DNA from: a virus
DNA: 41,697 nt
IMG/VR virus record: IMGVR_UViG_3300044644_001050
Coordinates: 1 to 41,697 of that record
Strand: one strand, 5' to 3'
Below, in pieces: positions 3,374-40,940 of this stretch (position 1 is the first letter of the stretch; each line of letters opens with the position of its first letter). A program made the position numbers and the translations under genes. Below the pieces are notes generated by a model. That model searched no databases. It had not been told where the DNA came from and worked only from the letters and a program-made list of their open reading frames with translations.

Positions 3374-3757
3374 TTACCTTATAAACATAGATGTATAAGG
3401 ATGCCCGCCGCCTGTAAACATTGGACCTTCATAAGGCCATTTAATATAATTGCTTATATGCTGTTGCCAATGCTGCCAGGGAGTTTTAAACTTCGGCTCT
3501 TGAAAGTCAAGCCAAAAATATGCGCGATGCGTTTTAAGTTCGTTGTTCAATAGTGCAACCCATGAATAATAACGTGATTCAGATACTAATACTGAATAGT
3601 GCCGCGATGGATACCAAAACTTTAAGCGCTTATATTTTCTGTAAAACTTACGGGTTAACGGAAAATAGTTAAACGAATCATTCAGGATTAAACCAAGTTC
3701 AATTGTATCGGGTTGCCCGCTTAGTATCAGTTCCCTAACCCATTTGGATTCTTGCAT
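3374..3757 (-). CDS. Hypothetical protein after the sigma factor gene
   Basis: This 127-residue protein of no recognised family is rich in aromatic residues (many Trp, Tyr and Phe) and is basic in its middle (RKFYRKYKRLKFWYPSRHY). It shows no signal peptide or membrane segment. Its ATG lies inside the last codons of the sigma-factor gene (23-base overlap), so it is the promoter-distal gene of the operon that starts near 5330 and is probably translated by coupling. A role tied to the sigma factor (co-factor, anti-sigma or host RNA polymerase modifier) is possible from position alone; nothing in the sequence proves it. Confidence 0.7.
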   Translation of the reverse strand: MQESKWVRELILSGQPDTIELGLILNDSFNYFPLTRKFYRKYKRLKFWYPSRHYSVLVSESRYYSWVALLNNELKTHRAYFWLDFQEPKFKTPWQHWQQHISNYIKWPYEGPMFTGGGHPYTSMFIR

Positions 3758-4505
3758 ATTGATTTTTTATTTTGTCTAATGCCTGATTATTTAATTGCCT
3801 TGCACGTTCACCTGTTACGTTTATCATTTGCCCTATTTGCTTATAGTCTTTTGCAAAGCCTTCTAAATATCTATGCTGAATAACTTTGTATTCAGAATCA
3901 TTTAAATATTTGATTAGGTAGTTAAACACCTTTTGGTTATCTGACTGCAAAGCTATTGCATCAGTTTGTGAATCAGACGCGGGCGAATACAACTCATTGC
4001 CATCATCATCGACATGGTCAAGACTTACAAAGCCTAACATATTTTTAGCCATGTTCACATAATGTTCTGATGCCTTTATTTTTTTGGCTATGTTCTCAGT
4101 TGTTTCATCATGAATATTTCGCATCTGATGTTTAACTATATATGCCTTATCAGGATAGCGTATAATATCGCGTTTGCTATTTATAAAGTTTTGAATTTCT
4201 GAGCGCATCTGATAAACCGCAAATGATATGAACTTATATTCACTATTACGGTCAAACTTATCGGCCGCCTTAATTAGTCCTATCATTGATTCACTAATTA
4301 TATCCATGATGTCAACCGATGTGACATAATGCCTAAACGCAACAGTTATGGCAAACATCATATTATGATTTATTAGTTGTTCACGTGTAGCCGTGCGCTC
4401 TTCTTCGAATGTCAAAGGCTTGTATCTGTTGGCCTCTAATAATAAACGCTGTAGTATTCCCTTCTTTTGATGCACAACGTTAAATCTTATATCAATTGCT
4501 TTCAT
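3735..4505 (-). CDS. Sigma-70-like RNA polymerase sigma factor
   Basis: This 256-residue protein would redirect host RNA polymerase. Residues about 45-115 look like region 2: AFRHYVTSVDIMDIISESMIG, then KFDRNSEYKFISFAVYQMR, the core-binding and -10 recognition helices. Residues about 195-250 resemble region 4, with a helix-turn-helix (YKQIGQMINVTGERARQL). I start it at ATG 4505, because the longer frame reads through the preceding SPOR gene in shadow. It overlaps that gene by 14 bases and the next by 23. The operon promoter is host-like, so a likely role is switching from host-read early promoters to late structural genes; that is inference. Confidence 0.85.
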   Translation of the reverse strand: MKAIDIRFNVVHQKKGILQRLLLEANRYKPLTFEEERTATREQLINHNMMFAITVAFRHYVTSVDIMDIISESMIGLIKAADKFDRNSEYKFISFAVYQMRSEIQNFINSKRDIIRYPDKAYIVKHQMRNIHDETTENIAKKIKASEHYVNMAKNMLGFVSLDHVDDDGNELYSPASDSQTDAIALQSDNQKVFNYLIKYLNDSEYKVIQHRYLEGFAKDYKQIGQMINVTGERARQLNNQALDKIKNQYARIQMG

Positions 4506-4809
4506 TGGTATAGAATTTTTTAAGTTGTGAAGCCTGCGCAAAAGTACGGCGGCAAATAAAAGCATCTGAATAAGCACGCTGCCATGAAGCCAAAGATATT
4601 TCAGCTTCAAACAAATCTGTATAAACAATCATAAGCCTGTAATAATTGCCAGCCTGTTCATACATAACCGTGTCGAATGGCATAATATTAAGTTGTTCCG
4701 CTGTTACGTATTCAGGTGTTTTTGTGCTAAGTATCTGAATGCAGTATAGCGTGTCTGTTTGCGCGTATGCTGCGGCGCTAAATAGTAAAATAAAAAATAA
4801 TGTTTTCAT
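4492..4809 (-). CDS. Exported SPOR-domain-like protein
   Basis: This 105-residue protein has an N-terminal signal peptide (MKTLFFILLFSAAAYA, cleavage likely after residue 16). The rest fits the SPOR fold: YCIQILSTK (strand 1, residues 22-30), then a segment with GNYYRLMIVYTDLFEAEISLA (54-74) and a final SDAFICRR (81-88). SPOR domains bind glycan strands stripped of peptide side chains, usually at division septa. A secreted phage copy could direct the lytic enzymes encoded here or affect host division; both are inference. It lies directly upstream of the sigma gene with a 14-base overlap and 20 bases after the small gene at 4830-5000. Confidence 0.68.
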   Translation of the reverse strand: MKTLFFILLFSAAAYAQTDTLYCIQILSTKTPEYVTAEQLNIMPFDTVMYEQAGNYYRLMIVYTDLFEAEISLASWQRAYSDAFICRRTFAQASQLKKFYTNESN

Positions 4810-4829: not shown

Positions 4830-5000
4830 TTAACCTATATAAGAATCTAAAATTTTATTATCTAAGTCTATTTGTCTGTAAGTAAAACAAGCGCCTGAAA
4901 TATATTGAACTTCAAATTTATCAGCATAGATAGTTACTACTTTACAAACTAAATTGCCATCTTTAAGATACTGTCCGATTTTTAAGTTTTGAATAGTCAT
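4830..5000 (-). CDS. Small hypothetical protein (56 aa)
   Basis: A 56-residue frame runs from ATG at 5000 to TAA at 4830. It reads MTIQNLKIGQYLKDGNLVCK and ends in LDSYIG. It resembles the 73-residue neighbour upstream: both have an IG-x-x-(L/I)-x-x-G-x-x-V-x-x-V core and share the DNA word AATCTAAAATTTTAT near their 3' ends, so the two may be diverged duplicates. It sits between a terminator-like hairpin (5026-5048) and the SPOR gene in the same orientation, so it is probably a small early gene of that operon. Confidence 0.6.
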   Translation of the reverse strand: MTIQNLKIGQYLKDGNLVCKVVTIYADKFEVQYISGACFTYRQIDLDNKILDSYIG

Positions 5001-5025: not shown

Positions 5026-5048
5026 TTCGGTTTTGTAGGTTGACCGAA
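5026..5048 (-). terminator. Terminator-like or attenuator hairpin
   Basis: TTCGGT (5026-5031) is inverted as ACCGAA (5043-5048) with an 11-base loop. On the minus strand it is followed by CTTTTAACTTTT, a weak T-tract. The sequence is clearly related to the hairpin at 33227-33247, which follows the other small early gene behind a near-identical promoter. Since four co-directional genes lie downstream without an obvious promoter, partial read-through (attenuation) is more likely than full termination. Confidence 0.5.
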
Positions 5049-5061
5049 AACCTGGATGTTG

Positions 5062-5283
5062 TTAATCTAAAATTTTATAATTATTGCTATAATGTGGGTT
5101 TAAAAAGTTTTCATAAGATAGACACATTTCAGATTTAGTGTTATATTTTAAAAAAGCATATTCAGAATAACCTTTAATACATTTAGGTGTAATTTCAGTT
5201 ACTATCATAACTTGTTTGCCGCCTTGAATTCTTGAACCGATTTGGATTTGTGCTGCTAATTTGATTGCATTTAAAGTTGTCAT
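5062..5283 (-). CDS. Small hypothetical early protein (73 aa)
   Basis: The protein begins MTTLNAIKLAAQIQIGSRIQ and ends SNNYKILD. The frame is open back to 5436, but a consensus promoter lies at 5334-5364 inside that longer frame. The transcript should therefore begin near 5327, leaving ATG 5283 as the natural start with a leader of about 45 bases. The leader and first codons (ATTATGACAACTT) match those of the 58-residue gene at 33259-33435, although the proteins differ afterwards. It is the first gene of the small-gene/SPOR/sigma operon. Function unknown; small early phage proteins often act on host targets. Confidence 0.68.
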   Translation of the reverse strand: MTTLNAIKLAAQIQIGSRIQGGKQVMIVTEITPKCIKGYSEYAFLKYNTKSEMCLSYENFLNPHYSNNYKILD

Positions 5284-5333
5284 AATCTTAATTTTTTGAA
5301 GTTTTTTAAATTCGTTTCCGTTGTATTGTGATA

Positions 5334-5364
5334 CAAAGATAGTTACTCTTTTCATAATTGCAAA
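5334..5364 (-). promoter_or_regulatory. Consensus Bacteroidota promoter with operator-like downstream sequence
   Basis: On the minus strand TTTG (5364-5361) is followed after exactly 19 bases by TATCTTTG (5341-5334), a full match to the -33/-7 consensus of Bacteroidota primary sigma factors. Directly downstream TTGTATCACAA forms a small inverted repeat (TTGT-ATC-ACAA) across the expected start region. The same arrangement recurs at 33478-33508. It should drive the operon 5283 to 3374. Confidence 0.85.
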
Positions 5365-5434: not shown

Positions 5435-5995
5435 ATGATTTTCAGAAAGCGAAACAGAGCAGAACAAAACGAAAAGAACTATTCAAAGTGGCTTAAAACC
5501 TACATTCCCGAAACAACAAAGCAGCGTATTGAGTTAACAAGGGTATTCACAGACCGCCAAGGTAATAACTTCTACATTCTTAAAAACCCTGCAAACTTAA
5601 CGCGTGAACGTGCGCAAAGGATTGAAGAAGCTATGACCGCTATTGACTTTGGTATTCATAAAAACGAAGTAGTTGAAAAGCTATCATGTATTTTAGAAAC
5701 TGTTGAGGATATGCCATGGCAAAACATGACACGCGATAAGCTAAAGGAATTTCATACTAAGTCAAAGGACCAATTGAATGATATTATTTATAGGCTTAAA
5801 AGTGTTAAGATAGATGACCTATTACTTGAAGCTGGTTTATATTTTTTCTATATTGATAATGAAAACCCATACATAATAAATTCAGAAACGCAACAGCGCA
5901 AAATGGACGCAATAAAAAAAGATGATGAATTGCGCGCTTTTTTTTTGAACAGTATAGAGCAAATCTTGAAAGGTTCGACCGCTTCAAACGTTTAA
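5435..5995 (+). CDS. Tail assembly chaperone, short form
   Basis: This 186-residue soluble protein lies directly upstream of the tape measure gene, the usual place of tail assembly chaperones (lambda gpG position). The sequence is mostly helical and charged, with no signal or membrane segment. The zero frame ends at 5995, but near its 3' end a run of nine T residues (5938-5946) allows a -1 slip into a long open frame that ends exactly at the tape measure start. The short form would be made by most ribosomes and the fused form by a minority. The family is called from position and frameshift layout, not from residue motifs. Confidence 0.65.
   Translation: MIFRKRNRAEQNEKNYSKWLKTYIPETTKQRIELTRVFTDRQGNNFYILKNPANLTRERAQRIEEAMTAIDFGIHKNEVVEKLSCILETVEDMPWQNMTRDKLKEFHTKSKDQLNDIIYRLKSVKIDDLLLEAGLYFFYIDNENPYIINSETQQRKMDAIKKDDELRAFFLNSIEQILKGSTASNV
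5938..5946 (+). other. Predicted -1 ribosomal slippery site (T9)
   Basis: In the zero frame the codons read GCT TTT TTT TTG; the heptamer T-TTT-TTT fits the X-XXY-YYZ slip pattern. A -1 shift leads into a frame open from 5929 to 6240. Transcriptional slippage on nine T residues is an alternative mechanism with a similar outcome. Confidence 0.65.
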
Positions 5996-19892: not shown

Positions 19893-19918
19893 GGGCAGTT
19901 CGAAAGGGCTGCCTTTTT
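19893..19918 (+). terminator. Rho-independent terminator after the scaffold gene
   Basis: GGCAG (19894-19898) pairs with CTGCC (19909-19913), loop of ten bases, followed by TTTTT (19914-19918). It ends the plus-strand head transcript before the opposed ParB-like gene. Confidence 0.75.
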
Positions 19919-19923
19919 AAATT

Positions 19924-19949
19924 AAAAAACCCCGCTATTTTGCGGGGTT
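19924..19949 (-). terminator. Rho-independent terminator of the ParB-like gene
   Basis: AACCCCGC (19928-19935) and GCGGGGTT (19942-19949) form a perfect 8-bp stem with loop TATTTT. The A-run at 19924-19929 gives a T-run on the minus strand. It lies seven bases beyond the stop of the minus-strand gene. Confidence 0.85.
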
Positions 19950-20756: not shown

Positions 20757-20808
20757 AATAAAATATGGGTTTGATAAGTCCGCCCAGAACTATAATTATA
20801 TAATGTCA

Positions 20809-20838
20809 CAAAATTACTAACTGTTTTTAAACTACAAA
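20809..20838 (-). promoter_or_regulatory. Promoter of the inserted ParB-like gene
   Basis: On the minus strand TTTG (20838-20835) is followed after 18 bases by TAATTTTG (20816-20809), fitting the TTTG / TAnnTTTG consensus. The leader to the ATG at 20756 would be about 45-50 bases. Unlike the early promoters at 5334 and 33478 it lacks the CACAAT element. Confidence 0.7.
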
Positions 20839-20882
20839 ACTTTTTATAAAAAAATTATAAAATATTTTACAAAAATACCTTT

Positions 20883-28385: not shown

Positions 28386-28825
28386 TGGATTCCCTGAATA
28401 TTACCGCCGATTCGCTTAACTTTTTTATGAAAGTTTTGCCAGAAATAAAGCAACAACTTTTTATTTTAAAGCCGCTTATTATTTGCCTATCATTTTTACT
28501 TTTAGTAGATTTTTTAACAGGCGTTCGAAAAGCAAAAGCATTAAAAGAAAAAATACAGTCGCGCGGTTTTAGAAGAACCATTTCAAAAATGAATGATTAC
28601 TGTTTAGCAATTATAAGTAGTCAAGTTTTTACCTGGATGCTTGACCTTGAATTTACGCTTAGTTATTACGTTGCTTTATTTGTTTGTGGCATTGAGCTAA
28701 AATCAATATTCGAAAATGTTTCACAAACTACAGGCGTGGACATTATCGGTTATTTTAAAGGCTTTATTCCTAACCCTAAAGATATATTAAAAAAGCCTGC
28801 AAGCGATAAACCTGCAGGCGAATAA
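28385..28825 (+). CDS. Holin (phage_holin_4-like)
   Basis: This 146-residue membrane protein shows the pattern of toxin-secretion/phage lysis holins. It has a first membrane helix LIICLSFLLLVDFLTGVRKA (about residues 32-51) with the D-F-L-T-G-V motif, then SRGFRRTISKMNDYCLAIIS (about 59-78), and a second hydrophobic stretch (YYVALFVCGIEL). It would make holes that release endolysin. It is the last plus-strand gene before a convergent minus-strand block. Its C-terminal codons KPASDKPAGE also encode the minus-strand terminator hairpin at 28789-28819. Confidence 0.75.
   Translation: MDSLNITADSLNFFMKVLPEIKQQLFILKPLIICLSFLLLVDFLTGVRKAKALKEKIQSRGFRRTISKMNDYCLAIISSQVFTWMLDLEFTLSYYVALFVCGIELKSIFENVSQTTGVDIIGYFKGFIPNPKDILKKPASDKPAGE
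28789..28819 (-). terminator. Minus-strand terminator inside the holin coding sequence
   Basis: GCCTGCA (28795-28801) and TGCAGGC (28813-28819) form a 7-bp stem; the A-run at 28789-28794 gives six T residues on the minus strand after the stem. It sits 30 bases beyond the last minus-strand gene, so it ends the early operon and lies within the opposed late gene. Confidence 0.8.
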
Positions 28826-28848
28826 TTTACTGTTTTGCTCTTTTGTTT

Positions 28849-29031
28849 TCATGTGTTCTCAGGCCGTTGCGTAGTGATATGCAGCGGTTTTTCTGTTTGT
28901 GCTAACTTATGAAAGTTTCTAAGCCAAAGTTCATTTACTATTATATAGCCGTTATTATAAAACTTTTTGTTTTCGCCCGCTTCAAATAATTGGCGTTCAA
29001 AAGTTTCTTCAAATGTCGGTAAATCTTTCAT
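28849..29031 (-). CDS. Small hypothetical protein (60 aa)
   Basis: This 60-residue protein begins MKDLPTFEETFERQLFEAGE and continues NKKFYNNGYIIVNELWLRNF. It has an acidic N-terminal helix and no membrane segment. Its ATG overlaps the stop of the preceding gene by four bases, so it is the last gene of the minus-strand block, just before the terminator hidden in the holin gene. No family is recognised. Confidence 0.6.
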   Translation of the reverse strand: MKDLPTFEETFERQLFEAGENKKFYNNGYIIVNELWLRNFHKLAQTEKPLHITTQRPENT

Positions 29032-33217: not shown

Positions 33218-33247
33218 TTAAAAAAATACGGTTTGAGGATAACCGTA
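33218..33247 (-). terminator. Minus-strand terminator of the 58-residue gene
   Basis: TACGGTT (33227-33233) and AACCGTA (33241-33247) form a perfect 7-bp stem with a 7-base loop; the A-run ending at 33226 gives seven T residues on the minus strand. The surrounding sequence (AGGTTT upstream, AAACCG in the stem) is related to the hairpin at 5026-5048. Confidence 0.82.
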
Positions 33248-33258
33248 AACCTGTGGGT

Positions 33259-33435
33259 TTATAAATTTTCTAAAAGATTTGATATTTTAGACATTTCGTT
33301 TTGAATTTCTTCAAGTTTTTGTTCTAAGTCCCAAGTGCATTGTGTCATTGCAATTGCATTCATTTGCTTATCAATTTTAACATATTCTTTGTTAAGTTTT
33401 GTAAACTGCTTGCTAAGTTTTTCTGAAGTTGTCAT
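33259..33435 (-). CDS. Small coiled-coil protein (58 aa) in its own transcription unit
   Basis: A 58-residue frame runs from ATG 33435 to TAA 33259. The protein is almost all helix: MTTSEKLSKQFTKLNKEYVK at the start, LEQKLEEIQNEMSKISNLLE near the end, with heptad-like spacing of Leu and Ile. A near-consensus promoter (33478-33508) lies 43 bases upstream and a strong terminator directly downstream, so it can be made from a transcript of only about 250 bases. Promoter, leader and terminator match those of the 73-residue gene at 5062-5283, though the proteins differ. Function unknown. Confidence 0.7.
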   Translation of the reverse strand: MTTSEKLSKQFTKLNKEYVKIDKQMNAIAMTQCTWDLEQKLEEIQNEMSKISNLLENL

Positions 33436-33477
33436 AATTTTGAAGTTTTTTTGTTGTGTTATAAATCAATTGTGATA

Positions 33478-33508
33478 CAAATATACAACCCTTTTTTATA
33501 ATTGCAAG
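33478..33508 (-). promoter_or_regulatory. Early promoter, duplicate of the one at 5334-5364
   Basis: On the minus strand CTTG (33508-33505) is followed after 19 bases by TATATTTG (33485-33478). The -33 flank TTGCAATTAT and the downstream TTTGTATCACAAT are identical to those of the promoter at 5334-5364. The TTGT-ATC-ACAA inverted repeat may be a repressor site overlapping the transcription start. Confidence 0.8.
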
Positions 33509-39641: not shown

Positions 39642-40397
39642 ATGACAAACCAAGAGTATCACCGTAAAACTGAGTACATCAGTAAATCACTTTTAGACTT
39701 AGTACATAAGTCACCCGCGCACTATAAAGCCTATATTGAAGGCGAAAAACAAGCGCCAACATCAGCTATGAACTTAGGTAGTTTAGTTCATAGTGTTGTA
39801 TTTAACCAAGATAATTACGCCGTTATGCCAGAATGCGGCCGCCGTACAAAAGAAGGTAAAGCAATTTATGAATGTTTTATGGCAGAATCAGAAGAAAAAG
39901 AATTATTTGTATCGCATAAAGATTACGAATTAGCCCTAAACATTAGAAACGCTGTTTTAGCACATCCGAAGGCTGCTATACTTTTAGAACAAGGCCAAGC
40001 AGAATTGCCTATATTTGGTAAAATTGCAGACATTGACGCAAAGTGCAAAGTAGATTTTTTAAACACTAAGTATAACGTTTGCATCGACCTTAAAACAACA
40101 ACTAACTCAGCGCCTAACGAATTTGCAAAATCTGTTTGGAATTATCGCTATCACGTTCAAGCCGCGTTTTATATGGACTTAACAAAGACTGAACGCTTTA
40201 TATTTATAGCTGTTGAAAAAGAAGCGCCGTTTAATGTAGAACTTTATGAACTTGACCCCGAAGCTATTGAACGCGGGCGACAGGAATATTTAGCCGATAT
40301 CCAAACGCTAAAAAAATGCAAGGAAACAAATAATTTTCACGGCTATACAACAGATAATAAAATACATATTCTTTCATTGCCTAACTGGGTTAAATAA
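39642..40397 (+). CDS. RecE-like PD-(D/E)XK exonuclease
   Basis: This 251-residue protein starts at ATG 39642; the earlier GTG at 39609 lies within the promoter and is rejected. It carries the RecE/Cas4-type nuclease motifs: LGSLVHSVV with H50, ELPI with E121, KVDFL with D138, IDLKTTT with D149 and K151, and YHVQAAFYMD with Q173. It should degrade one DNA strand to expose 3' ends for the annealing protein encoded directly downstream. Together they form a RecET-like recombination pair. Length matches the stand-alone nuclease domain. Confidence 0.87.
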   Translation: MTNQEYHRKTEYISKSLLDLVHKSPAHYKAYIEGEKQAPTSAMNLGSLVHSVVFNQDNYAVMPECGRRTKEGKAIYECFMAESEEKELFVSHKDYELALNIRNAVLAHPKAAILLEQGQAELPIFGKIADIDAKCKVDFLNTKYNVCIDLKTTTNSAPNEFAKSVWNYRYHVQAAFYMDLTKTERFIFIAVEKEAPFNVELYELDPEAIERGRQEYLADIQTLKKCKETNNFHGYTTDNKIHILSLPNWVK

Positions 40398-40406
40398 TTT
40401 CAAACC

Positions 40407-40940
40407 ATGACACAACTAACTAAACTTCCGACACTTCAGGAACTATTAGTAGAAAATGAAGACAGCCTTAAGCAAAATGCGCTAACTGTATTATTGAACC
40501 AAGACCCGCCTGCAAAGTGGTTAGTTCAGCACCCAATGATTCGCGATTATAAATATATTCCTATTGAAAAAATAGAATATCTGTTAACGCGTATCTTTGG
40601 CAATTTTAACGTAGAAATACGCTCAACACAGATAGTAGCTAATTCAGTAGTAGTAACTATAAGGCTGCATGTAATAAACCCTATATCAGGACAGCCAATG
40701 TGGCAGGATGGAATAGGTGCTGCACCAATTCAAACAGATAAAGGTGCAGGCGCAACCGATTGGAACGCCGTTAAAACCGATGGTGTGCAAAAAGCTGCAC
40801 CCGCCGCCGAAACTTACGCCGTTAAAGATGCTGCTGAAAAGTTTGGTAAAATATTTGGCCGCGATGTTAGCCGTAAAGGTTCTATGAATTATACCGATTT
40901 GCTGAAAAAATCAGCGTTTAATGATGAATTAGAAAAATAA
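40407..40940 (+). CDS. Rad52-like single-strand annealing protein
   Basis: This is a 177-residue protein. Residues about 45-150 resemble the Rad52/Sak core: IPIEKIEYLLTRIFGNFNVE, VVTIRLHVIN, then AAPAAETYAVKDAAEKFGKI and FGRDVSRKG (about 129-157), the helical block with conserved K-x-A-x-K-(L/F)-G. It pairs with the RecE-like nuclease ten bases upstream, and SSB is also phage encoded. Annealing proteins of this type drive phage recombination and replication. The family assignment is by motif, moderately firm. Confidence 0.75.
   Translation: MTQLTKLPTLQELLVENEDSLKQNALTVLLNQDPPAKWLVQHPMIRDYKYIPIEKIEYLLTRIFGNFNVEIRSTQIVANSVVVTIRLHVINPISGQPMWQDGIGAAPIQTDKGAGATDWNAVKTDGVQKAAPAAETYAVKDAAEKFGKIFGRDVSRKGSMNYTDLLKKSAFNDELEK

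Follow-up and report, generated by a model that had tools for sequence, protein, structure and literature searches.

Why does one phage genome carry, at two separate places, nearly the same control sequences around small ORFs that encode different proteins? The two loci, cassette 1 (5363-5026) and cassette 2 (33507-33227), both lie on the minus strand of the window, the whole stretch of DNA analyzed here, which covers the IMG/VR record of a freshwater phage in full (41,697 bases). The initial annotation regarded them as copies of a mobile or amplified unit, composed of a promoter, a small ORF and a terminator, for early takeover proteins.

The window encodes tailed-phage genes, among them a terminase, a portal protein, a tape measure protein, a sigma factor, a primase, and a DnaB N-terminal domain, as well as a helicase, an SSB, endolysins, an exonuclease VIII-like nuclease, and a Rad52-like protein. 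The sole genome match is a Bacteroidetes MAG contig, and a megablast comparison of the 4-10 kb region with GenBank phages gave zero matches. The promoters of the window, TTG-N19-TAnnTTTG, match the Bacteroidota sigma-A consensus TTTG/TAnnTTTG (PMC6847099) and thus fit this phylum.

Shared control blocks around unrelated small ORFs

Cassette 1 begins with the promoter TTGCAATTATGAAAAGAGTAACTATCTTTG (5334-5363, minus strand), which is of the Bacteroidota sigma-A type (TTG-N19-TATCTTTG; consensus TAnnTTTG) and is preceded by an A/T-rich tract that extends upstream to about 5400. Cassette 2 begins immediately past the primase gene with TTGCAATTATAAAAAAGGGTTGTATATTTG (33478-33507, minus strand; TTG-N19-TATATTTG). 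A promoter is therefore present in both cassettes, as first described, but the two are not identical because the -7 boxes, TATCTTTG and TATATTTG, are one nucleotide apart. The 13-base block TTTGTATCACAAT, which overlaps the -7 box and covers the presumed start region, has only two exact copies in the window, one in each cassette (5337-5325 and 33481-33469, minus strand). Transcription is predicted to begin at about 5325-5330 in cassette 1 and at about 33469-33475 in cassette 2. The leader of cassette 1 (5281-5324, minus strand) is A-rich, lacks a Shine-Dalgarno sequence, and contains AAAAAACTTCAAAA at 5307-5294; the leader of cassette 2 (33436-33468, minus strand) contains the same word at 33451-33438. 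Another common block, ATTATGACAACTT, is located at 5286-5274 in cassette 1 and at 33438-33426 in cassette 2.

Alignment of promoter, leader, and start between the two cassettes yielded a score of 64, whereas no other place in the window scored above 38 and none of 2,000 shuffles above 41, and blastn of one cassette region against the other gave an E value of 3e-11. The 3' elements of both cassettes aligned with a score of 27 (at most 24 in 2,000 shuffles). The encoded proteins, however, are unrelated, with an alignment score of 18 that is equalled by 90% of the shuffles. The duplicated cassette is thus real: its control blocks are shared far beyond chance and its proteins are not. Part of this likeness is common host-type promoter sequence, because the second-best match to the cassette 1 promoter in the window is the promoter of a ParB-like gene, near 20816. 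The region of that promoter (20758-20877, minus strand) has a cassette-like A/T-rich upstream tract and TAnnTTTGtnnCA.

The ORF in cassette 1, henceforth payload 1, encodes 72 aa (MTTLNAIKLAAQIQIGSRIQGGKQ...; 5062-5280, minus strand). It is followed in the operon by a 56-aa ORF without assigned function (4830-5000, minus strand) and, farther downstream, by a phage sigma factor with Sigma70 regions 2 and 4 (3735-4628, minus strand). A suspicion raised by eye, that payload 1 is a paralogue of the 56-aa ORF, was dropped, as no alignment was found. Payload 2 is a 58-aa ORF (33259-33435, minus strand) with a predicted coiled coil. It resembles the effector-associated domain EAD9 (E = 3e-4), a match that lies below the Pfam cut-off and may be coiled-coil noise; payload 2 might possibly be a conflict-system decoy. 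Functional annotation of the payloads against PHROGs, Pfam, and PADLOC yielded none, and the predicted structure of payload 1 has a mean pLDDT of 58, too poor for a structure search. Of the proposed early takeover function, the early part is plausible, as the host sigma-A promoter type suggests early expression of the payloads, but takeover found no counterpart in these annotation searches.

Replacement and movement of the payloads

Relatives were collected by a TerL search of IMG/VR that returned 127, of which the best 80 were taken. The divergent gene at 5435 served as the anchor of site 1 and the 3' end of the primase gene as that of site 2, and the first ORF past the promoter was taken as the payload of each relative. 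The shared blocks, on whose presence in relatives the initial annotation had made its proposal depend, are found there. The 82 cassettes recovered from the IMG/VR relatives carry payloads of 43 families without mutual similarity (25 at site 1 and 20 at site 2, with 2 at both), although a few of the 25 site 1 families represent the next operon gene rather than guests (L034, L038, L039, and L081). The first three of these relatives resemble empty slots, in that the leader of the following gene directly adjoins the promoter; in L081, site 1 begins with the sigma gene.

Replacement is precise. For 150 pairs at site 1, the ORFs are unrelated, while the 140 nt upstream are at least 85% identical and the 50 nt past the stop codon at least 75% identical. 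For example, the flanks of the window and L047 are 99% identical upstream and 94% identical downstream, with unrelated ORFs between them. The breakpoints coincide with the start codon, often behind the common ATGACAACT, and with the stop codon. On a backbone tree of 44 tips built from TerL and the 5435 gene, by a quick search that left many forks weakly supported, the payload at site 1 changes at least 31 times. These comparisons demonstrate that what changes is the payload as a whole, from the start codon to the stop codon or the 3' element, and that the payload may be missing. The notion of conserved control parts around exchanged small ORFs is thereby borne out.

Payloads also travel. Payload 1 recurs in L005, likewise at site 1, and in L115 and L004, there at site 2; the site 1 copy of the window and the site 2 copy of L115 share 96% nucleotide identity, and in L115 the site 2 form of the 3' element then follows. 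Similarly, one 44-aa payload was found at both sites. Payload and sigma gene can differ widely in their similarity: the payloads of L014 and L040 are 100% identical at the nucleotide level with sigma genes at 66%, those of the window and L005 are 95% identical with sigma genes again at 66%, and those of L059 and L071 are 99% identical with sigma genes at 64%. L153, L209, and L212 have payloads 91-94% identical, and L221 and L232 have payloads 75-76% identical; these are five contigs with few or no other window genes within the DNA retrieved. A TerL match is absent from the records behind L153, L209, L212, and L232, several of which are fragments. Judged from these sequences, payloads move between both slots and between phages. 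The sigma gene itself occurs in two forms in close relatives (about 95% versus 66% nucleotide identity), despite a nearly constant terminase, so that it also seems to be exchanged.

The description of a mobile cassette found no support: neither an integrase nor a transposase nor repeat ends came to light. The pattern of exchange fits homologous recombination in the shared flanks.

The 3' element as a pseudoknot

The structure behind the gene was first described as a shared hairpin. The elements are indeed alike in the two cassettes, but covariation supports two interleaved helices instead of a plain hairpin. At site 1, this element of about 27 nt, denoted PK1, reads AGGTTTTCGGTCAACCTACAAAACCGAA (5026-5053, minus strand) and lies 8 nt past the stop codon of payload 1; at site 2, the variant AGGTTTACGGTTATCCTCAAACCGTA (33227-33252, minus strand) is followed by T7. 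The strict pattern AGGTTTNCGGTNANCCTN{1,3}AAACCGNA matches 90 IMG/VR stretches, with chance matches estimated at fewer than one (the size of the collection is not stated with this estimate); for looser patterns, abundances are "at least" figures among the matches listed. Many matches sit in contigs of 20-180 kb without relation to the window, some that have Shine-Dalgarno sites and some that do not, and the core is constant across phages whose base composition differs widely.

Three pairs of helix S2 are Watson-Crick in 65, 72, and 89 of 93 listed copies with independent flanks, compared with 39, 25, and 51 in shuffles. The outer pair of helix S1, which was left free in the last scan, is Watson-Crick in 105 of 138 listed copies, compared with 73 in shuffles (standard deviation, 3.7; maximum, 91), and comprises A:T (86), G:C (11), T:A (4), and C:G (4, two of which are reverse-complement readings). 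The inner GG/CC of S1 and the GGT/ACC of S2 were fixed by the search patterns and hence lie outside this test. Mismatches of the G.U type outnumber A.C mismatches by 23 to 7, which fits an RNA of the strand of PK1. Because the helices interleave and covariation extends to both across about 138 copies with independent flanks (independence being judged by dissimilarity of the flanks, not by phylogeny), an H-type RNA pseudoknot is the better reading of the 3' element.

With the Rfam 15 covariance models, at gathering and relaxed thresholds, no family matches PK1, and a description of this pseudoknot was not found in the literature searched, which was covered in part. A scan of 395 Bacteroidota genomes gave one match, equal to the reversed-pattern control. 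Among GenBank phages, short queries with the element gave a clear intergenic copy only in the Polaribacter phages P12002S/L, which are isolates; matches in Bacillus, Listeria, and Puniceispirillum phages were inside genes or too weak.

PK1 is missing in about half of the site 1 relatives and in most of the site 2 relatives, and because so many lack it, it cannot be essential for exchange. Some of these relatives have no element, whereas others often have, at the same place, a second one, denoted PK2, which reads CGGGGCGCAGTATCCGACCAACTGCAA at site 2 (L094, L099, L100, and L105) or AGGGCGCAGCATCTTACACTGCA at site 1 (L058, L064, L077, and L080). It also occurs in L399, L406, L410, L411, and L416, and at least 28 copies were counted in viral contigs. 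Its core, GGGG-S2-YATCCGACCA-S2'-AA, lies behind stop codons, and its S2 is changed on both sides across phages (GCAGT/ACTGC, CCGCG/CGCGG, GAGCG/CGCTC, and GTGCG/CGCAC). PK2, for which Rfam gave no convincing match, thus looks like a second pseudoknot type. There is about an even chance that PK1 and PK2 belong to an unnamed, broad family of phage mRNA pseudoknots, of at least these two types, that would serve behind stop codons as a portable 3' module, making genes exchangeable singly.

Position of PK1, rival readings, and a proposed mechanism

PK1 typically starts 5-12 nt past a stop codon, ahead of ribosome-binding sites, promoters, or tRNA genes. In 92 of 137 listed copies with independent flanks, a reading frame on the same strand, 50 codons or longer, stops 4-15 nt before PK1, compared with 3.6% of random positions and with 9 in the mirror control. 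In seven unrelated contigs (L259, L271, L303, L326, L424, L445, and L448), PK1 is followed within about 10 nt by a tRNA gene, and in an eighth case the tRNA gene is somewhat farther away. A T-rich tract, defined as at least 5 T in the next 8 nt, follows 33 of the 137 listed copies. Given this position and the rarity of T-tracts, PK1 is to be assigned to the 3' end of the gene before it and is in most cases no canonical terminator. The alignments show that it recurs among phages, is tied to that 3' end, and has undergone compensatory changes in both helices.

The initial annotation had called the element a terminator, a reading under which each cassette would be an independent, moron-like transcription unit. 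The stem is stable, the 7-bp stem with T7 at site 2 resembles an ordinary intrinsic terminator, and in some unrelated phages a sigma-70-like promoter lies within 60 nt past PK1 (11 of 137 listed copies, compared with 2.6% of random positions). Site 1, however, does not look terminator-like and has no solid T-tract behind it, and most PK1 copies do not combine a GC-rich stem with a T-tract. In the window, the next start codon lies 25-28 nt past PK1 (25 nt at site 1), and between 5450 and 3700 the minus strand has no complete TTG/TAnnTTTG site other than the promoter of cassette 1. Full termination would therefore leave the sigma-factor operon without a complete promoter, so that this operon most likely depends on readthrough. 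Furthermore, the second helix and the conserved S1 would both be superfluous in a terminator, and the phage has strong canonical GC-rich hairpins with T-tracts on both strands elsewhere, at the ends of convergent genes (19893-19949 and 28795-28890), which are unlike the pseudoknots. The terminator label is accordingly not supported for PK1, and termination as its general role is considered unlikely, if still the most serious of the alternatives.

Strong sequence conservation with covariation, and a start codon that often follows within 10-30 nt, would also suit a cis-regulator of the downstream gene, such as a riboswitch or a protein-binding leader. The spacing to the upstream stop codon is tighter, though, tRNA genes or promoters may follow in place of an ORF, the downstream genes share no type, and there is no Rfam relative, all of which makes such a role distinctly doubtful. 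It is more improbable still that the element serves chiefly as DNA, as a recombination site or a linker, with an incidental RNA fold: it does border the exchanged segment, but the interleaved compensatory changes and the excess of G.U on one strand point to RNA, and the place behind stop codons is fixed also in phages without known exchange. ToxI-like antitoxins of type III toxin-antitoxin systems are small H-type pseudoknots, and the element might, by virtue of this broad fold class, be a decoy for such host RNA-based systems. Such antitoxins stand as tandem pseudoknot repeats next to a toxN gene. Single copies in the window without tandem repeats around them, the lack of an Rfam match, and a core that stays identical in phages of widely differing base composition render a decoy role very improbable.

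The reading that we favor, and consider quite likely, is that of two promoter-proximal slots, each with a small ORF exchangeable by recombination, in which PK1 acts as a protector or insulator of the mRNA 3' end. In the window, each slot opens with a sigma-A promoter and an A-rich leader that ends in ATGACAACT; one exchangeable small ORF and the pseudoknot follow, and past them the operon continues into the sigma factor at site 1 and into small genes after the primase at site 2. The conserved promoter-leader and 3' blocks would be where recombination, homologous or of the annealing type, exchanges the payloads, with help from enzymes of the phage. The candidates are an exonuclease VIII/RecE-like nuclease (39642-40397, plus strand; PHROG 412, E = 2.6e-75) and a Rad52/22-family annealing protein (40407-40940, plus strand; PF04098, E = 1e-4), its candidate partner; together (39642-40940, plus strand), the two genes are probably a phage recombination pair. 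The least certain step is that the pseudoknot would shield the 3' end of the payload message, blocking 3'-5' decay and separating the next cistron. Protection is suggested by the place right after stop codons and right before tRNA genes, where RNase P cutting at the following tRNA would leave the pseudoknot at the end of the message. With a protected 3' end, any ORF that enters the slot could be expressed without tuning.

Several known systems share features with these slots. In PeSLs (promoter early stem-loops), a stem-loop and a promoter stand together between genes. They are known from T4-type phages (Arbiol 2010 and Comeau 2014, cited in PMC4503421) and form, as a title puts it, a composite promoter-terminator motif. 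The likeness lies in conserved early promoter and RNA-structure blocks with small genes shuffled between relatives; here, too, a host-type (sigma-A) promoter is part of the conserved block at both sites, and both slots show gene shuffling between relatives. Unlike in the composite PeSL block, however, each of the two fixed slots has a single ORF between a promoter of the Bacteroidota type and a downstream RNA element, and this element is a pseudoknot. Morons of temperate phages are extra single genes with their own promoter that vary between close relatives. The slots likewise have their own promoter, and an apparently empty allele in L034, L038, and L039, but they occupy the first place of an essential-looking operon; site 2 looks terminator-like, whereas site 1 probably lacks a complete terminator. 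The intercistronic CUUCGG hairpins of phage T4 are, like PK1, recurrent stable RNA structures right behind stop codons in phage messages; PK1 differs in sequence and in its pseudoknot fold, and is found in many unrelated phages. Finally, SAS/ESAS, the start-associated sequences of cluster K mycobacteriophages, likewise place conserved control words ahead of small genes that are unlike one another; these are other sequences and precede many genes, whereas here two exchange slots are framed.

PK1 is a phage RNA element with covariation in both helices that is apparently missing from Rfam and is essentially absent from the Bacteroidota genomes sampled. The two loci are clean, natural plug-in gene slots, in which the address, the promoter, and the start are constant and dozens of different small genes come to reside. 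The many genes that visit such a constant slot are immediate candidates for a role in host takeover or counter-defence.
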